From the NCBI RefSeq assembly GCF_003970795.1, contig NZ_RWKW01000055.1:1-64000 (forward strand): a stretch of DNA of 64,000 bases, written 5' to 3'. The notes under the pieces are model-generated. The model saw only the letters and a list, made by a program, of their open reading frames with translations. It had not been told where the DNA came from and did not search any database. The position numbers were made by a program, and so were the translations under genes. This stretch comes from Aquibium carbonis (GTDB lineage: Bacteria; Pseudomonadota; Alphaproteobacteria; Rhizobiales; Rhizobiaceae). Shown piece by piece: positions 32,658-64,000 of this stretch. How positions within the stretch are numbered: the first letter of the stretch is position 1; every line of letters starts with the position of its first letter.

Positions 32658-32661
<4 letters not shown>
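29881..32661 (+). CDS. P2-type cation ATPase (Ca/Mg-like)
   Basis: 926 residues in P2-ATPase order: N-terminal cation-ATPase domain (HGLTSVEGTERLARHGRNEL), TGES at 181, PEGLP at about 298 in the fourth helix, DKTGTLTRNEMTV with Asp341, the FVKGAPERIL nucleotide site, [17 protein letters not shown] and a C-terminal set of six helices. PEGLP and the long C-terminal membrane domain separate it from the heavy-metal pumps here. The ion is probably Ca2+ or another divalent or monovalent cation. Its stop overlaps the FtsH start (ATGA). Confidence 0.92.
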
Positions 32662-34544
<1,883 letters not shown>

Positions 34545-56472: not shown

Positions 56473-56757
56473 GTTCTTGGGCATCGAACCATCGATAAGG
56501 TCCTGGATGCTCCTAACGTTATGGCCTTACCGATTGCTTCGGACGCCGCCTTTGGACATTGCGCAGGCAAGCCGCTTCCTGCTTTCCCTGGTTTCGCTCG
56601 TCCATCGCCGGATAGACGCAGCCCGCTTGCCCCCACGCGCATGAGCTGAGCCTGCCTCGCCGTCCCGCCTTGCGGTACAGGCGCCTGGGTGCAATCCTTA
56701 ATCAGGGTTCCCCGCAGTAGAATCGGGGGAGGGTCACGGGGAGGGGAGGTATCGGCC

Positions 56758-57771
56758 ATGCCGCTCGACGAAGCATTCCTTCGCCGACTTGCGGCCGCGT
56801 CGGACAAGACGCTGGAGATCTTTGTCCACCACCTCGTTTCGCTCGAGACCGCCACCTACAGGGACCACGAGTGCTACGGCGGCTCCGGAGACAAGGGCCG
56901 CGACGTCGCCGGTTTCCTGACCGACCGCCGCCACGAGGGCGAGTGGCACAACTTCCAGTGCAAACAGTACCGCCGTCCGCTGGGAGCGGACTACATTCTC
57001 CTCGAACTCGGGAAGATGTTCCACCATGCGTCCGAAGGCGCCTACATCCTTCCGTCCAAATACGTGTTTGTCGTGCCTGGCAACCTGTCTGCTCCCGCCA
57101 GGGCGCTCATGGACCGCAAGAGCGCCCTGAAGGCGGAACTGCTCCAAAACTGGGAGACGCATTGCGCGAGGAGGATCGTGAAGGGGGGCTCGATCCCTCT
57201 CACGGCAGCGATCCAGGAGTTGATCGAGCAGTTCGATTTCAACTGCGTCGAGGCCTGGGAGAGCTCGAGGATCATGACCCTCCCCAACGTGGTCTTCGCG
57301 GCCGCAAAAGCGTTCGGCGACGACCCGGGCGACGCGCCCTACGGGGTCGTCCCGGCGGACGTAGACCTGCGTTCCGAGCACTATGGCGAGCAGCTGCGGA
57401 TGGTGTACTCCGAACACGATGGCCGAGACTATCCGGATGCGGCTTCCGTCCTCGCTCACGAGGAACATGGCGAGGATTTCCAGATCCATCGGCGCCGCTA
57501 CTTCGACGCGGTCGAGTTCGAGCGGTACTTCACCGACAAAGTCGGACGCCAGCATATCGACGCGTTCCGCGAGGACCTCAGGTCGGCTGTTCATGAATCC
57601 TATCGTTCGTCCACTGGGCTCGGCCGGGTCAGGGCGGTGATGGACGCGGCCGGCAGGGCTAACTTGGGTGGACTGTTCGGGCGGCACGGCCGGGTGACCC
57701 ACATGGTTCGGCAGGGAACCTGTCACGTGTTCGCGAACGAACAGAAGCTGCCTTGGTGGAAGAAGAAATGA
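56758..57771 (+). CDS. ABC-three-component system, nuclease subunit
   Basis: 337 residues from ATG 56758, with a strong GGGGAGG ribosome site. The N-terminal part has restriction-endonuclease-like signatures: Glu20, then GSGDKGRD (Asp45/Asp49) and FQCKQY (Gln67, Lys69), in the order of Mrr-like folds. The C-terminal part (RRRYFDAVEFERYFTDKVG, then FREDLRSAVHESY and GRVTHMVRQGTCHVFANEQKL) matches the shared C-terminal domain of effector subunits in ABC-3C conflict systems. It overlaps the next gene by four bases. The target is unknown. Confidence 0.72.
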   Translation: MPLDEAFLRRLAAASDKTLEIFVHHLVSLETATYRDHECYGGSGDKGRDVAGFLTDRRHEGEWHNFQCKQYRRPLGADYILLELGKMFHHASEGAYILPSKYVFVVPGNLSAPARALMDRKSALKAELLQNWETHCARRIVKGGSIPLTAAIQELIEQFDFNCVEAWESSRIMTLPNVVFAAAKAFGDDPGDAPYGVVPADVDLRSEHYGEQLRMVYSEHDGRDYPDAASVLAHEEHGEDFQIHRRRYFDAVEFERYFTDKVGRQHIDAFREDLRSAVHESYRSSTGLGRVRAVMDAAGRANLGGLFGRHGRVTHMVRQGTCHVFANEQKLPWWKKK

Positions 57772-58256
57772 GCGCGGCCGGCCAGCCAGACCTGTTCAAT
57801 GGAGTCCTCGAGACGGGGATGCGTTCGGTCGTCGTGTTGAACGAGTTCAGCCCGATCGAGCTGGACCGCGAGCAGCTGAGCCTGCTCGACTACTTTGTCG
57901 TTCACACTTCCCAGGCGGGCGGTCCGGCCGACATGCACCCCACCAATGCCGGGAGCTTCAGCGAATACCACGTGCGCAGGCGACGGATCGAGGAAGGCAT
58001 CAAGATGCTGGTCCGCATCAGGCTCGTCGACATCGTCCCCGATCCCGACCGCGGCGCGTGCTTCCGTGCGGGCGACGACGCGCCGGGCTTCGTCGACCTC
58101 CTCAATTCCCCCTACAATCGAGAGCTCGTCGACCGGGCGCGGTGGCTGCGAGCCAGTCACGACGAGGATTCCGGTTTCCTGGCCGGACTGCGGCAGCGGA
58201 TCGAGCGGTGGGTGATCGAGTTCCAGCAGAGGGAAGCGCCGGGAGGGACGACTTGA
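57768..58256 (+). CDS. ABC-three-component system, middle component
   Basis: 162 residues. The winged-helix-like body has VVVLNEFSPIELDREQLSLL, then DYFVVHTSQ, YHVRRRRIEEGIKMLVRIRL and FVDLLNSPYNRELVDRARWL, the usual outline of the small middle component in three-gene ABC systems. Its ATG overlaps the nuclease stop, and its TGA overlaps the TTG start of the ATPase. The tight coupling implies that the three proteins form one complex. Confidence 0.7.
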   Translation: MSAAGQPDLFNGVLETGMRSVVVLNEFSPIELDREQLSLLDYFVVHTSQAGGPADMHPTNAGSFSEYHVRRRRIEEGIKMLVRIRLVDIVPDPDRGACFRAGDDAPGFVDLLNSPYNRELVDRARWLRASHDEDSGFLAGLRQRIERWVIEFQQREAPGGTT

Positions 58257-60151
58257 GCCGCGCGCGGTCCATACGCCTCACGAGGCTCAGCTTCACCGGG
58301 ACCGGGAAGCAGACTGCAGCCGTGGATTTCGGCGACGGCCTGTCGCTCGTGTACGGCGGATCGAACGCGGGCAAGTCGTACATCCTGAAGGCCGTCGACT
58401 ACGCACTGGGTGGAAGCAAGCTCGACGGGATCCGCCAGTCCGAGGGCTACGAAAGCGTGTTTCTGTCGTTCGTCCTCGAACCCGACGGGATCGTTGTGAC
58501 GACCCGGCGTTCGCTGAGAGGCGGGGACATCGAATGGTTCGAAGGTGCAGCCGATGAAGGCGGGGTAGCCGGTCTGCGCTCCAACGCCCTGAAGCAGAAG
58601 CACGGAAAGGCCCGGAAATCGCTTTCGGAACGGCTTCTTCTCCATCTCGGCATCGAGAGGGCCTCCATTGCCGCCACCCAGGCGGGATCGCTGGAAACCT
58701 TCAGCCTGCGCCACTTCATGCCATTCGTTCTTGTCACCGAGAGCCGCATGCTTGGCGACGACACGCCGCTGAAGCAGCATTCACGGTCCAAGCCCGGCGC
58801 CGACAAGAACGCGTTCCGCTTCATTATGACAGGGACCGACGACTCTACGATCGTGAAGGTCGCTACCCCAGTCGAGCAGACGGCCTCGAATGCCGGGAAG
58901 ATCGAGCTGCTCGAATCCATGATCGCGGATGCGGACACGAGGCTTGCCAGGTTTTCCGCAGAATCCGGAGAACAGGGACTGCTGGACGAAGAGGCGCTCT
59001 TCAATCTCGGCGAGGCGGTCGCGGAGCGGCAGCGCGGCCTGGACCAATTGAGGGCCGACCGCCGGAAGACCATCCTCGACGTCGACGATGTGAGGGACGA
59101 GGCGAGCGAGATCGCGACTTCGCTCGCCCGGTACGGAGATCTCGAGCTGACGTTCCAGTCGGATATCAGGAGGCTCAAAGCCATCGAAGAAGGAGGCCAT
59201 TTCCTCCTGCGCTTCAATGATCAGCCTTGCCCGATCTGCGGCGCTGAACCGGGCGACCAGCATCTGGTGCACGAAGCCGGAGACCTGGAACGCCAGCACC
59301 AGGCCTCAGTCGTCGAAATCGCCAAAGTGGAGCGCGACCTGAAGGACCTGCGCGAGCTGATGGTGTCCCTCCGGGCGCAGCTCGAGAGGCTGAGGGGAAG
59401 GGAACGGCGGCTCTGCGAAGACCTCGAACGCTGGAATGCCCAGATCGAGACCAATGCGCCCAACGAAGCCGCGCTCCGGCGCGACTATGTTTCCCTGCAG
59501 GCCAGGGCTGACAGGGAACGGGTCCGGGGAGAACTGGTTCTGAATCGCGATACCCTCCAGCGACAGCTAGACGACCTCCGGAAGTTCAAAGCATCCCGGA
59601 AAAAGGCCGAAGGCATCACGATGGGCATTGCCTCGAACGTCGGCCACGATCTGTCCATGGTAGTCGCAGACGTGCTGAACCGCTGGGAGTTCCCTGGGGT
59701 GGAGGCGGTCACGTGGGATCCAGTCCGAGACGATATTCAGGTAAATGGCTGGCCTCGGACACAGAACGGCAAGGGCGTTAAGGCGCTGCTGCATTCCGCG
59801 GTGAAGGTCGCGGTGCTCCTGTACTGCCGACAGAAATCACTTCCGCATCCTGGCTTTCTGTTTCTGGATTCACCACTCCTGACCTATCGCGGACCGATGC
59901 TTTACGAGCGCTATGGCGCACCCGACGAGGTCGAACAAGCGATCAGCCAGAGTTCGTTGGCCACCAGGTTCTACGAGCATCTTTCTTCTTTGAAGGACAT
60001 CGGTCAGTTCATTGTCATAGAGAACACCGACCCACCGGAGGGCATCGGCGCACTCGCGCATGTACACGTGTTCTCGGGCGAGAACGGGGTCGGTCGTCAG
60101 GGTCTGTTCCCGCCTATCGCGAGATCACAGGGCGCGCGCGACAAGGCTTGA
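58253..60151 (+). CDS. ABC-three-component system, SMC/RecN-like ATPase
   Basis: 632 residues from TTG 58253, with GGGAGGG six bases before it. Walker A GGSNAGKS is at 35-42, long coiled-coil arms follow, a hook-like CPICG is at 326-330, and Walker B LFLDSP (Asp539) is near the end with VIENTDPPEG after it. It belongs with SMC/Rad50-like ABC ATPases that power conflict systems by sensing DNA or RNA ends. It completes the operon with the nuclease and middle component. Confidence 0.8.
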   Translation: MSRARSIRLTRLSFTGTGKQTAAVDFGDGLSLVYGGSNAGKSYILKAVDYALGGSKLDGIRQSEGYESVFLSFVLEPDGIVVTTRRSLRGGDIEWFEGAADEGGVAGLRSNALKQKHGKARKSLSERLLLHLGIERASIAATQAGSLETFSLRHFMPFVLVTESRMLGDDTPLKQHSRSKPGADKNAFRFIMTGTDDSTIVKVATPVEQTASNAGKIELLESMIADADTRLARFSAESGEQGLLDEEALFNLGEAVAERQRGLDQLRADRRKTILDVDDVRDEASEIATSLARYGDLELTFQSDIRRLKAIEEGGHFLLRFNDQPCPICGAEPGDQHLVHEAGDLERQHQASVVEIAKVERDLKDLRELMVSLRAQLERLRGRERRLCEDLERWNAQIETNAPNEAALRRDYVSLQARADRERVRGELVLNRDTLQRQLDDLRKFKASRKKAEGITMGIASNVGHDLSMVVADVLNRWEFPGVEAVTWDPVRDDIQVNGWPRTQNGKGVKALLHSAVKVAVLLYCRQKSLPHPGFLFLDSPLLTYRGPMLYERYGAPDEVEQAISQSSLATRFYEHLSSLKDIGQFIVIENTDPPEGIGALAHVHVFSGENGVGRQGLFPPIARSQGARDKA

Positions 60152-60274: not shown

Positions 60275-60892
60275 ATGGCCGCTCTTTCCCGACATCAGAA
60301 TTCCCGTCAGGCGGCTCCGAAGCCGGGAGCCGCGCCGAAGGCAAGCGCCTTCCGGCCATTCCCGACCGTGCGATGCCAAGGCGCGCCTTCATTCCGTACG
60401 CAGCTGGCTCGCGACTTCGCATGCCTTCTCGATGTCGATGACGAGGTCTCCGCATGGTCATGCCTGCCTGCCGAGTTGGCGAGGGACGACGAGAGCCACG
60501 TGCCAGACTTCCTGGTACGTCGGGGCGGACGGCATGAGCTCGTAGATACGGGCAATGGACCCGGCTTCCGTTGGCTTTCGCAGGAGGCGGAAGAGCGGGG
60601 CTGCGCCTATGTCGTTGTCCCCTCCGCTGTCATCCGTGAAGGGTTCCGTCTTGCCAACGCGCGCGACCTTCTCCGCTACGCTCGGTGGGAGTGCCCTCTG
60701 GGAGACCGCATCCGTTTGCTGGCAGGCCTTGAGGAGAACGGATCGCTCACCGTGTCCGAAAGCCTCGCGGCGTTTCGTGAGACGCGCCCCATAGCCGGGC
60801 TGGCGGCATTGGCGCTGAGCCGCTTCGTGTCGATCGACCTCGACAGCGCGCCGATCGGACCGAACACCTCCGTCAGGCCTTGGACGGCCTGA
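60275..60892 (+). CDS. TnsA-like endonuclease-fold protein, site degenerate
   Basis: 205 residues from ATG 60275 (TAGGAGC before it). The segment SFRTQLARDFACLLDVDDEV, then HVPDFLVRRGGRHELVDTG follows the TnsA pattern (SxLErdfl..ll, VPDFlv, then E-x-K). However, the first acidic residue and the final E-x-K lysine are missing, so it is probably not an active nuclease. The C-terminal part (ARDLLRYARWECPLGDRIRLL, then LTVSESLAAF) resembles the DNA-binding end of such proteins. It precedes the FtsH-like gene by 46 bases. Confidence 0.55.
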   Translation: MAALSRHQNSRQAAPKPGAAPKASAFRPFPTVRCQGAPSFRTQLARDFACLLDVDDEVSAWSCLPAELARDDESHVPDFLVRRGGRHELVDTGNGPGFRWLSQEAEERGCAYVVVPSAVIREGFRLANARDLLRYARWECPLGDRIRLLAGLEENGSLTVSESLAAFRETRPIAGLAALALSRFVSIDLDSAPIGPNTSVRPWTA

Positions 60893-60938
60893 GCGACGAA
60901 CCCAGCAGCTTACACGCTGCCCATTTCCGAGATGCCCC

Positions 60939-62861
60939 ATGCAGAAAATCCTGAGCAGGCGCGCCATCTACAGGTCCGGCGCCGATCCCGACGACATGAG
61001 GAAACTGAAGGACCTTGCGAGGGCGGTCGCGCTGGGTCAGATGAAGGCCGCCACACGTTCCGTGCCCCAGGTGGCGCGGCATGACATGCCCGTTTGCGTG
61101 GGCATCGTCGTGCCGACGGAAAGTCTCTTCGCTTTCGAACTCGCCCTTCGCAGCCTGGCATGGCCCCGCAGCGACACTTACGGGCTGCCGATGCAGGTCG
61201 GCGTCCATGTCTTCGCCTCGCACGACGAGTGCAAGCGGGCCGAGAAGGACGGCTTCTGGCTTAAGGAACGTCTCTTCGTGCTGGTACCGTCGCGCGGATT
61301 GTTGCCGCGCGGATTCGAGGCCGTGGCCGATCTTGTCGCGGAAATCGGAGCGCCGTCGCCGCGTCTGATCGCGGGCGCAGCGCGGCAGTGCCTCGGCATC
61401 CGTCTCTCGGAAGCCGAGGCCGAGGAGGCAGCTTGCTATCCGCTTGAATCTCTGTCGAAGGCGTTCCGGCCCGGACGAAAGCCCGGCCGCGCGCTGAGGG
61501 CCCTGCGCCACATGGCGTCGGACGCCCGCAAGCCCGCCGCTGCATCGGAAGGCCCGACGCTCGACGACCTGCCTGGCATGGGCGAGGCGGCTGACTGGGG
61601 CCGGCAGCTTGCGGTCGACTTGAAGGACTGGGAGGCGGGAAGGATCAGATGGGAGGACGTTGACCGAGGGGTCCTGCTTTCGGGTCCCCCTGGATGCGGA
61701 AAGACCTCGTTCGCAACCGCCCTGGCCAGGACGTGCGGGACCGCCATCGTCCTCGGCTCCCTGGCCCGATGGCAGTCGATGGGCCACATGGGCGATCTCC
61801 TGAAGGCGATGCGCAAGGCGTTCGACGAGGCGATGAAATCGGCCCCGTGCATCCTGTTCGTGGACGAGGTCGATTCCTTCGGTGACCGGGAACGGCTGGC
61901 CGTCAGCAGCAACAACGAGCAGTACTGCCGCGAGGTCATCAACGGCTTCCTCGAATGCCTGGACGGGGCGGCCGGCAGGGCAGGTGTGGTGGTGGTCGGC
62001 GCGACCAACTATCCGGACGCGCTCGACGCGGGCATCCGTCGTCCGGGACGCCTCGACCGCCACATCGCCATTCCGCTGCCGGACGCGGAGGCGCGGGCGC
62101 GCATCCTGAGGCTGCATCTGCGCGCCGACGTCGGTTCCGAAGGATTCGCAGAGGCAGCGCGCAGGACCGAAGGCTGGTCGGGCGCCCGGCTGGAACAGCT
62201 GGCAAGGGACGCGCGCCGTAGCGCGCGCGCGGCGCGCGGGCCCGTCTCGATAGAGGATATCCGGCGCGCGCTCCCTTCGCGCACGCGGCTGCCCGACGAC
62301 GTGCGCCGCGTGGCTGCCGTGCACGAGGCAGGCCACGCTATCGTCGGCGTGGCTCTCGGAAGGGTCATCGAAGAGGTCACGATTTCGGCCGAGATCGACG
62401 CCGATGCCCGGACCGGACTGGGCGGCAGGACGGTGTTCGCCGACGAGGGGTCCATGTTGAAGACGCCTGCATGGTTCCGGAACCGGATCGCCGTCCTGCT
62501 TGCGGGTATGGCCGCCGAGGAGATGGTGTTCGGCACCGCTTCGTCCGGGGCCGGTGGCGGTCCGGGATCGGACCTGTTCACCGCCACTATCGCTGCGGCG
62601 ACACTGGAGGCTTCCTACGGGCTCGGGGTCGGGCTCACCTTCCTGTCGCCGCCGGATCCTCGCCAGTTGCTTGCGGCGCTGGAGGCCAGCCAGGCGCTCC
62701 AGTTGCGTGTCGAGCGAGTGCTGCAGGAGGAGAAGCGACGGGCAAAGGACATCCTTGACCGAGCAGGTCTCGGTAGGATCGAAGCCGTTGCCGCGCGGTT
62801 GCTCGTGGGGGAAGCCTTGACCGCGTCCGGCCTCGCCGCGCCGGAATCCCCTGTCATTTAG
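60939..62861 (+). CDS. Soluble FtsH-like AAA+ zinc protease
   Basis: 640 residues without any membrane helix. Residues 1-215 are an unrecognised N-terminal domain. The AAA+ part has GPPGCGKT (249-256), ILFVDEVDSFG (Asp309-Glu310) and the arginine finger in RRPGRLDRH. The peptidase has HEAGH (462-466) and a third ligand in SSGAGGGPGSDLFTAT. All catalytic residues of FtsH are present, but the protein lacks its membrane anchor, so it should act in the cytoplasm. It pairs with the TnsA-like gene. Its substrate and role are unknown. Confidence 0.82.
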   Translation: MQKILSRRAIYRSGADPDDMRKLKDLARAVALGQMKAATRSVPQVARHDMPVCVGIVVPTESLFAFELALRSLAWPRSDTYGLPMQVGVHVFASHDECKRAEKDGFWLKERLFVLVPSRGLLPRGFEAVADLVAEIGAPSPRLIAGAARQCLGIRLSEAEAEEAACYPLESLSKAFRPGRKPGRALRALRHMASDARKPAAASEGPTLDDLPGMGEAADWGRQLAVDLKDWEAGRIRWEDVDRGVLLSGPPGCGKTSFATALARTCGTAIVLGSLARWQSMGHMGDLLKAMRKAFDEAMKSAPCILFVDEVDSFGDRERLAVSSNNEQYCREVINGFLECLDGAAGRAGVVVVGATNYPDALDAGIRRPGRLDRHIAIPLPDAEARARILRLHLRADVGSEGFAEAARRTEGWSGARLEQLARDARRSARAARGPVSIEDIRRALPSRTRLPDDVRRVAAVHEAGHAIVGVALGRVIEEVTISAEIDADARTGLGGRTVFADEGSMLKTPAWFRNRIAVLLAGMAAEEMVFGTASSGAGGGPGSDLFTATIAAATLEASYGLGVGLTFLSPPDPRQLLAALEASQALQLRVERVLQEEKRRAKDILDRAGLGRIEAVAARLLVGEALTASGLAAPESPVI

Positions 62862-63010: not shown

Positions 63011-63313
63011 CTATTCGAACCTGAATCCGAACAGGCCTCCTTCAGGGGTGTCCTCCAGGACAACCGGGAGGACGTGCGAACGGATCGGCGACCCCTCGGA
63101 CAGCGGGAGGCCGTCGAACTTGTCGCTGTTCATCGTCACGATGTATTGAACACCTTCTTCTGCGGCGAGCTGTGCCCCGATCTCGATGGCCGACGCGACC
63201 TGTCTCGCATCCACGCCATCGAACAGGTGGCTGTCGTGGATGAGGAAGCCCGGGCCGCCGAATCGGCTCGAAGCTACCTTCAGGATGGCGTAGTCCATCG
63301 CGAAGATTTCCAT
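63011..63313 (-). pseudogene. C-terminal stump of DUF2326 ABC ATPase
   Basis: About 100 residues (MEIFAMDYAILKVASSRF, then GGPGFLIHDSHLFDGVD and QYIVTMNSDKFDGLP, ending GGLFGFRFE) match the last part of DUF2326 proteins, the ATPases of another branch of three-component ABC systems. The Walker B-like DSH is present, but the N-terminal ATPase half and coiled coil are absent. Upstream, 63314-63566 has no continuation. It is therefore a truncated remnant of a second ABC system. Confidence 0.75.
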
Positions 63314-63404
63314 GTTCACGCTAGTATTCAAACCACTCGTCCGGTGGCGACATTTCGATGAAGCGGAATCCAGCGATGGACGCCGGAAGAGTCTAAACAT
63401 TCCC

Positions 63405-63566: not shown

Positions 63567-64000
63567 CTAGGCAGCGCCCGGCGCAGGGGTAGCCGGGCTG
63601 ACGCGTTGATGCCCGTTGCGAACGGCTTTCGCCTTCTTCTGGGCAGTCGATTTCTCGTAAGCCCAGAAAGCCGGATCGGCCGCGACGGCACGCCTGACAT
63701 CGTCGCGACAGTAGAAAAAGGTGCCGAAGGACTCTGGATCAAGAACGGCTTCGATCGCTGCGATACGCAAAAGCAACCGCACCTTCTTGTGATGAAGACC
63801 GCTCTCCTGGCAGAGTTCGCCGAGGGTGACGAAAGAAGACCTGAACGCTTCCGCGCTCGCCCTCGTAACGACCGTCGTCATCCTGCGCGCCTCCGGATTG
63901 AATTCCTCCTCGGTGCGGAGATGTCCCGAACGGATAAGCGCACAGACCGCGTCTCCATGCGCGCCTGGGATGAAGGTCTCCGCTTCCTGCTTCGTCAGTC
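63567..64000 (-). CDS. TniQ-like DNA-binding protein, C-terminal part
   Basis: The frame is open from 64000 to the stop at 63567, giving at least 144 residues with the start beyond the window. ETFIPGAHGDAVCALIRSGHL, then AFRSSFVTLGELCQESGLHHKKVRLLL and FGTFFYCRDDV resemble the C-terminal helix-turn-helix region of TniQ/TnsD-type transposition proteins. Its AFR..YV-type module is similar to the tail of the chimeric protein at 40796. It suggests that a transposition module lies just outside the window. Confidence 0.6.
   Translation of the reverse strand, partial: LTKQEAETFIPGAHGDAVCALIRSGHLRTEEEFNPEARRMTTVVTRASAEAFRSSFVTLGELCQESGLHHKKVRLLLRIAAIEAVLDPESFGTFFYCRDDVRRAVAADPAFWAYEKSTAQKKAKAVRNGHQRVSPATPAPGAA

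Follow-up and report, generated by a model that had tools for sequence, protein, structure and literature searches.

A Predicted Nuclease-Dead TnsA-like Protein Paired with a Soluble FtsH-like Protease: A Possible Companion Module of Tn7-like Transposons in Rhizobiaceae

Introduction

TnsA is the endonuclease subunit that cuts the 5' ends of Tn7-like transposons, and FtsH is a membrane-anchored AAA+ metalloprotease of the M41 family. Two other described systems are relevant here. IetAS is an anti-phage system that consists of an AAA ATPase and a subtilisin-like protease, and ClpX acts on the MuA transpososome. In this study, a pair of genes encoding a TnsA-like protein and an FtsH-like protease is analyzed in a stretch of 64,000 nucleotides from Aquibium carbonis (contig NZ_RWKW01000055.1, positions 1 to 64,000), hereafter the window. 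To our knowledge, the limitation of self-copies or the exclusion of rivals by protein turnover has been little studied in Tn7-like elements.

The preferred reading, to which we give a probability of roughly 0.4, is that the pair is a companion module of one group of Tn7-like transposons in Rhizobiaceae-type bacteria, in which the dead TnsA would act as an adaptor feeding the protease, with the transposition complex as the likely target. The two open reading frames lie where the first-pass annotation of the window had placed them. Their parts are as follows.

60275..60892, plus strand: TnsA-like protein of 205 residues, predicted to be catalytically dead (A45 and G93; D78 and D91 kept)
60407..60409, plus strand: codon of A45, which aligns with the LE glutamate of genuine TnsA
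60551..60553, plus strand: codon of G93, at the place of the catalytic lysine (lysine in 1 of 75 relatives)
60939..62861, plus strand: FtsH-like AAA+ M41 zinc protease of 640 residues, predicted to be soluble (Pfam, NCBIfam, residue conservation)
60939..61583, plus strand: N-terminal domain of the FtsH-like protein, about 210–215 residues, with no Pfam match at the curated cut-off
61671..62078, plus strand: AAA ATPase core, residues 245–380 (Pfam AAA, E 1.3e-29)
62298..62828, plus strand: Peptidase_M41 domain, residues 454–630 (Pfam, E 2.2e-14)
62322..62336, plus strand: zinc site HEAGH, residues 462–466 (alignment)
62571..62573, plus strand: D545, probable third zinc ligand (alignment; the role is presumed from FtsH)

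Results

The TnsA-like Protein

The 205-residue protein had been assigned a TnsA fold, and profile comparison agrees with this. When 73 TnsA-like relatives were compared by hhalign with 17 TnsA proteins, which are profile matches near the same loci, the probability of homology was 96% and the pairwise E-value 3.8e-9. The 191 aligned columns span both the nuclease domain and the C-terminal domain of TnsA. A smaller comparison of 15 with 4 sequences was weak (probability 10%), and the homology is therefore claimed from the larger set. The NCBIfam model TnsA_like_Actin (NF033179) matches 13 of 15 family members; the window protein matches it at near full length with E 8.3e-6 and 25.4 bits, where the cut-off is 110 bits. 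No match to the TnsA-like proteins was found in Pfam, and PF08722 had no match anywhere in 61 genomes, controls included. A search of PDB sequences with the TnsA-like profile gave weak matches only, the best being the R2 retrotransposon endonuclease (E 0.036), and was not used.

Key catalytic residues had also been described as missing. In the window protein, A45 is found opposite the LE glutamate and G93 opposite the lysine of genuine TnsA, and the acidic residues D78 and D91 are retained. A check for an intact site in most relatives found the reverse: the nuclease lysine is gone in 74 of 75 relatives, two further rows of the 77 loci having no residues at the catalytic columns. Judged from these columns, the TnsA-like protein is dead as a nuclease across almost the whole family. 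The sole relative that keeps the lysine (L074:9749-10387, with DVK) has lost the glutamate, and is perhaps an evolutionary intermediate.

Between the loci L018 and L019, the ratio of nonsynonymous to synonymous substitutions (dN/dS) is about 0.11 (0.107/0.939) for the TnsA-like gene; for the FtsH-like gene it is 0.16. A higher ratio (0.239/0.626) is seen for the genuine TnsA that these elements carry. Between pair 1 and pair 2 of the host genome, the ratio is 0.18 for the TnsA-like gene and 0.25 for the FtsH-like gene, with dS saturated. By these ratios both genes are under purifying selection. The TnsA-like gene is not decaying: its dN/dS is low although the nuclease site is dead.

The FtsH-like Protein

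The best NCBIfam match of the 640-residue protein is FtsH, at 184.6 bits, below the equivalog cut-off of 600 bits. In 109 FtsH-like copies scoring above 300 bits, the Walker A lysine, Walker B, both arginines of the second region of homology (SRH), HEAGH and D545 are retained wherever the column is present, and the Walker A threonine is replaced by serine in three. W278 (107 of the 107 copies with the column) and G282 (104 of 107) are located in what we take, by eye, to be the FtsH pore-loop region.

In the N-terminal part, the highest hydropathy over 19 residues is 1.78 in the window protein and 0.66–1.55 in 18 relatives. The customary threshold for a membrane helix is 1.6. Only the window protein among the 19 is slightly above it, so no membrane helix is conserved. 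The earlier description of an enzyme that lost its membrane helices and kept its ATPase and zinc-protease sites thus stands in these 19 proteins and 109 copies, respectively. A new N-terminal domain of about 215 residues had been described as well. The block conserved family-wide starts near residue 206 and AAA proper at 245, so a length of about 210 residues is fair.

A scan of viral contigs with the FtsH profile gave at least 37 distant AAA matches. A second FtsH-like gene is present in the window at about 32658–34544 (plus strand), 3' of a P-type ATPase gene, and matches the phage family phrog_30773 (E 2e-267). Genes for a universal stress protein, a carbamate kinase, a phosphoribosyl pyrophosphate synthase and a phosphoketolase-like protein were recognized by eye around it; this presumably resembles a stress-tolerance island.

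Linkage and Distribution of the Pair

The 77 TnsA-like loci consist of 3 from the host's own genome, 2 genome contigs, 12 plasmids and 60 of 70 other family places. L067 repeats L019, leaving 76 distinct loci. The 10 omitted places, out of 70 outside the own genome, are all among the lower-scoring ones, and 5 of 17 plasmid records were also left out (H4, H6, H7, H9 and H16, the first four of which look like near copies).

The FtsH-like gene is directly 3' of the TnsA-like gene on the same strand in 66 of the 77 loci: 64 by rule and 2, read by hand, where overlapping open reading frames hid it. The gap is mostly between −60 and +70 bases, and in the window it is 46 bases. This recurrence indicates that the arrangement is not due to chance. 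The first-pass annotation had named rare co-occurrence as a ground for doubt; the genes do co-occur. L091 is counted by rule within the 66, and its protease is open only in the N-terminal third. Among the other 11 loci, an insertion sequence comes after the TnsA-like gene in L030, and contig edges cut L096, where an N-terminal piece of the protease is present, and L099. In L089, L110, L118 and L125 a DUF6634 gene comes next and then no intact protease; in L068, L078, L108 and L113 no intact protease is seen downstream.

The host genome contains three pairs: that of the window, a second at C146:81346-83896, about 20 kb away, and one on C176 cut by the contig end. A further FtsH-like gene, on C169, is instead preceded by a protein with a PD-(D/E)XK motif. 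The TnsA-like gene was found in at least 58 of 394 genomes of the host's taxonomic family. In an order-wide sample it was found in at least 14 of 397 genomes, six of them outside the family and one of these six scoring strongly. Such counts per genome are lower bounds, with the best 8, 7 or 4 candidates scored per genome depending on the search. The 17 matching plasmid records belong to Rhizobium (13), Sinorhizobium (2), Aminobacter and Microvirga. Almost all occurrences of the pair fall within a single bacterial family, where its distribution is patchy.

Association with Tn7-like Transposons

Just past the window, a Tn7-like core of TniQ, TnsC, TnsB and TnsA is encoded on the minus strand (contig 63567–69535). 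In this element its own, separate TnsA precedes TnsB. The core extends into the window with the following feature.

63567..63998, minus strand: C-terminal part of TniQ of the Tn7-like transposon, convergent with the pair (context only)

Of the 29 loci at which a Tn7-family gene was matched, 20 have a separate TnsA. Among the 77 TnsA-like loci, 21 have Tn7-family genes within 5 kb and 27 have them within 10 kb; none of 20 control regions has any. At 45 FtsH-like loci without a TnsA-like gene, which have shorter flanks, Tn7-family genes are found at none within 5 kb and one within 10 kb. In L114, L117, L119 and L120 the pair lies 500–800 bases before tnsA, in the same direction.

A TnsB profile was searched in 247 genomes, with the best 4 candidates scored in each, so that the counts are minima. 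It matched 55 genomes at 1e-40; at E 1e-100 or better there remained 27 genomes, with 33 matching places between them. The TnsA-like gene is present in 23 of these 27 TnsB-group genomes and in 10 of the 220 others (Fisher p 9e-21); the FtsH-like gene is present in 25 of 27 and 35 of 220. When the seed genomes of the TnsB profile are excluded, the TnsA-like gene is found in 15 of 19 (p 5e-14) and the FtsH-like gene in 18 of 19. At the looser 1e-40, the TnsA-like gene is in 24 of 55 against 9 of 192 genomes (p 2e-11). Around the 33 TnsB places, a TnsA-like gene is within 15 kb in 11, and either a TnsA-like or an FtsH-like gene in 16.

Homology to fetched stretches of three congeners ends at the 3' end of a B12-dependent ribonucleotide reductase gene (contig 88500). 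A probable Tn7-like end, with two 21-base tandem repeats and weaker copies, abuts this gene at contig 88410–88480. Because the homology stops there and the end repeats are found there, pair 2 can be placed in an inserted island. The same 3' end of the reductase gene (C146:88410-88500, L013:10410-10500) is an apparent integration hotspot, and the neighborhood downstream varies between the compared congeners. Element ends around pair 1 were not found, and a scan for clustered repeats gave no convincing end beside tnsA; the idea that the pair holds a constant position between tnsA and the end of the transposon found no support. By eye, positions 1–56000 of the window are an accessory region with genes for metal and copper handling (P-type ATPases, a multicopper oxidase-like protein), in which DUF305 and MauE were matched by Pfam, and which is perhaps in the same island.

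Neighboring Genes

De novo clustering compared 961 gene calls at 75 TnsA-like loci with 325 from the 20 control regions of the same genomes, all made with a simple caller based on guanine-cytosine content by codon position. The clusters found are PIN-domain proteins (22 of the 75 loci), TnsB (19), metallophosphoesterases (17), TniQ-like proteins (12), TnsC-like proteins (11), C5 cytosine methylases (11) and a large helicase-nuclease (8). None of these seven clusters is present in the 20 control regions.

By profile, PIN genes are found at 26 of the 77 loci, within 700 bases of the TnsA-like gene in 12. Among 14 PIN rows, the first three acidic residues are kept in 13 and the fourth in 12. None of the small open reading frames next to the PIN gene was seen at more than 4 of 19 loci inspected. 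Of the 67 TnsA-like loci that include a protease, 11 have a metallophosphoesterase directly 3' of the FtsH-like gene; among the 45 FtsH-like loci without a TnsA-like gene, 11 have one no more than 500 bases away. Neither the PIN nor the metallophosphoesterase profile matches in the 20 control regions. In L024, L077, L081 and L090, the PIN, TnsA-like, FtsH-like and phosphoesterase genes stand in a row. These facts would suit a protease hub that controls toxic effectors encoded beside it (a solo PIN ribonuclease or the metallophosphoesterase), in which the dead TnsA-like protein, DUF6634 or the PD-(D/E)XK protein would be a sensor switching the degradation of the toxin or of its inhibitor. We regard toxin control as quite unlikely, as most pairs, that of the window included, have neither PIN nor phosphoesterase adjacent, and PIN genes are common in mobile islands.

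The PIN family (L018, L019, L024, L074, L077, L081, L084, L090, L093, L097, L104 and others) has a conserved C-terminal LPG(L/V)YNP-like motif, has no recurrent antitoxin that could be found, and is often divergent from the TnsA-like gene.

The gene set directly upstream of the pair is a defense system.

56689..60151 of the window: complete Lamassu system, LmuA, LmuC and LmuB, directly upstream of the pair

PADLOC recognizes its components together (LmuA E 2.9e-69, LmuC 4.7e-34, LmuB 2.5e-136), as a neighbor and not as part of the pair. On the other side, beside TniQ, window 63017–63319 (minus strand) carries a C-terminal remnant of a DUF2326 / PDC-M68B defense ATPase. Elsewhere, L024 is flanked by a CBASS (cyclic-oligonucleotide-based anti-phage signaling system) set with a HORMA protein, and L025 by genes for CHAT, an S8 peptidase with an ATPase, and Kiwa KwaB.

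At 1e-15 or better, PADLOC matched 86 families among 120 neighbor proteins from 20 loci and 17 among 120 control proteins. Counted by protein, this corresponds to at least eight neighbors (four with Hhe models and four with cytosine methylase models, from the best 25 of the 86 families), against about six of the 120 controls by rows, mostly generic ATPases. The large helicase-nuclease DUF4011/MTES_1575, taken as Hhe type, is found at 8 of 75 loci and in none of 20 controls.

Based on these neighbors and on its patchy, mobile distribution, the pair could itself be anti-phage defense cargo of Tn7-like transposons and plasmids, with the dead TnsA-like protein sensing a phage nucleoprotein or protein that the protease destroys. 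This appears rather unlikely. The neighborhood is weak evidence, because Tn7-like elements carry many defense genes anyway. Neither gene of the pair has a PADLOC model beyond generic AAA matches (IetA, TRIP13), the presence in 23 of 27 TnsB-group genomes is high for ordinary cargo, and one scan of viral contigs with the TnsA-like profile found no relative.

The first-pass annotation had proposed a conflict or transposition-control system. This proposal gained weight from the contrast between TnsB-group and other genomes and from the defense neighbors, and is carried forward here as the transposition-control reading.

Alternative Partners of the Protease

FtsH-like genes were found at 113 places at E 1e-100 or better, in at least 74 of 297 genomes with the best four candidates scored per genome. 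A TnsA-like gene is upstream of 38 of the 113. The 45 loci without a TnsA-like gene comprise 41 of the other 75 places, mostly higher-scoring and including C169, and 4 plasmid loci.

At 11 of the 45, a PD-(D/E)XK-like protein of 310–370 residues is encoded upstream, within 530 bases in 10 and at 1.4 kb in L224. PD and DxK are kept in 7 of ten aligned partners; the motif reads DVM in L212, and L236 and L238 show VD in place of PD and have also lost the glutamate. Of three partners examined, two match REase_AHJR-like weakly in Pfam. Members of this family, most of them with the PD...DxK arrangement, are L016:2765-3709, L209, L210, L212–L214, L236, L238, L245 and L246. Treating the TnsA-like protein and the PD-(D/E)XK partner as one family was unsupported at the profile level (hhalign 0.2%).

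At 22 of the 45, a DUF6634 gene adjoins the protease gene or is one gene off, upstream in 21 and downstream in L241. Three of these proteins match the Pfam model, each under its cut-off, and the others were assigned by their own profile. DUF6634 is also present between the TnsA-like and FtsH-like genes in L098, L101, L102, L106, L123 and L124. It is found downstream in L074, L075, L084 and L086, the matches in L075 and L086 being weak. The Pfam model matches 1 of 240 genomes of the class, which understates the spread of the family because the model scores the partners here below its cut-off. A literature search for DUF6634 gave nothing. A small metallophosphoesterase is the partner at 7 of the 45, and 5 have none of the recognized partners.

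It looks like one protease with exchangeable specificity partners. The earlier picture of a protease dedicated to the dead TnsA does not hold: only 38 of 113 copies have the TnsA-like gene upstream, at least three alternative partners exist, and a metallophosphoesterase or PIN gene is often beside the protease gene. The recognition role of the TnsA-like protein is retained as a proposal.

The variety of partners, and the 5 loci with none recognized, might also suggest an ordinary intracellular protease for quality control or regulation, with partners that travel in the mobile island by coincidence. Such an ordinary protease is improbable, given that its gene keeps the same order and close spacing with respect to the TnsA-like gene, that a dead protein is under purifying selection, that genomes carry several copies and that the setting is mobile.

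Discussion

The transposition-control reading builds on six points taken from sequence: the TnsA homology, the loss of the nuclease site, the intact protease site, the tight linkage, the purifying selection and the co-occurrence with Tn7-like transposases. From these we infer a hexamer, a physical complex, a substrate and a phenotype, and likewise a TnsA-like protein that recognizes DNA and feeds the protease. A recognition subunit is the best reading since the dead TnsA keeps the fold, is under selection and precedes an intact protease. It is also suggested by the swapping of partners before the same protease, as adaptor-protease logic predicts such swapping. Because of the link with Tn7, a Tn7-type transposition complex is the likeliest target.

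The TnsA-like protein would have lost cutting and kept the TnsA fold, and would serve as an interchangeable recognition subunit, or adaptor, that brings a target to a soluble FtsH-like hexamer. The hexamer would take the target in through its N-terminal domain and pore, unfold it with ATP and degrade it at the zinc site. As for the target, the complex of TnsB and TnsC with the transposon ends would be the likeliest. Degradation of the complex of its own element would amount to self-restraint, and degradation of that of a rival to exclusion. It can be speculated further that Tn7-like elements carry, as a decoy or adaptor, a nuclease-dead version of the TnsA that they themselves encode. It would recognize rival (or own) transposition complexes as they assemble and hand them to a dedicated cytosolic FtsH-type protease, which would be re-aimed by swapping in DUF6634, the PD-(D/E)XK protein or the phosphoesterase; this fuller version is possible but doubtful.

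Several observations weigh against the transposition-control reading. No Tn7-family gene is present within 10 kb at 50 of the 77 TnsA-like loci, and in the Microvirga locus L031 (H17), excluded from the 77, a partial TnsA-like match has no protease annotated nearby. The TnsB cut of 1e-100 was chosen post hoc, at a gap in the scores. In 28 genomes the TnsB matches are all weaker and mostly partial, and just one of these carries the TnsA-like gene; the link is thus with one TnsB group. FtsH-like genes without a TnsA-like gene nearby are also within 15 kb of TnsB in five places, and the Tn7 link is therefore not special to the dead TnsA; a specific link of the TnsA-like pairs (21 of 77 against 0 of 45 within 5 kb) had been considered and is weakened by these places. 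The distances of TnsA-like and TnsB proteins correlate (r 0.66, n 18; r 0.52 in a reduced set of 14), which favors the reading, but in a comparison that ignores host phylogeny. Between L117 and L120, the TnsA-like proteins are 82%, the FtsH-like proteins 90% and the TnsB proteins 43% identical, and L104 and L105 behave alike; to judge from these identities, some pairs were clearly exchanged between transposons, as cargo would be. Defense genes are common neighbors of the pair, as defense cargo would show. AlphaFold models from three-sequence alignments had a mean predicted local distance difference test (pLDDT) score of 37 for the TnsA-like and 42 for the FtsH-like protein, too poor to use.

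Anti-phage cargo and toxin control are live rivals of the transposition-control reading, and parts of each could hold together.

The pair suggests an undescribed way of policing mobile DNA, in which the DNA-end protein of a transposon is disarmed and coupled to a soluble, self-contained AAA+ metalloprotease. The question can be tested directly with two genes. The wider family, with one soluble M41 protease and exchangeable partners, offers a natural series for the study of substrate choice by FtsH-type enzymes, and DUF6634 gains its first genomic context.

Comparison with Known Systems

No description of the pair was found in the titles and abstract openings among the literature matches listed. 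The words 'FtsH' and 'protease' do not occur in the main text of a survey of Tn7-like cargo (PMC8649781), nor 'FtsH' and 'TnsA-like' in that of PMC10293859. Examples are known both of AAA+ proteases that work with adaptors and of conflict modules borne by transposons; within these sources, no report of the present combination was found.

The TnsA-like protein resembles TnsA in full-length profile homology, including the C-terminal domain, and in its occurrence with TnsB-bearing elements. Unlike TnsA, it lacks the catalytic glutamate and lysine and is followed by a protease gene. Its gene is not in a transposase operon before tnsB, and the neighboring transposon has a TnsA of its own.

The FtsH-like protein shares with FtsH the AAA and M41 domains, HEAGH, the third zinc ligand and the SRH arginines. 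It differs in having no conserved membrane helix, another N-terminal domain and a score of 184.6 instead of 600 bits, as well as a tryptophan in the pore-loop region (placed by eye).

IetAS is similar in that an ATPase and a protease are joined in one mobile module, and the AAA domain of the FtsH-like protein matches IetA models. Here, however, a single M41 polypeptide combines ATPase and metalloprotease, and the other gene of the pair encodes a dead TnsA and not a serine protease; no S8 domain was found by Pfam in the ten window proteins scanned.

A parallel in action would be ClpX on MuA, an AAA+ unfoldase working on a transposition complex, as is putatively the case here. ClpX, however, belongs to the host and recognizes tags by itself; here the mobile element brings along both the FtsH-like protease and the putative adaptor.

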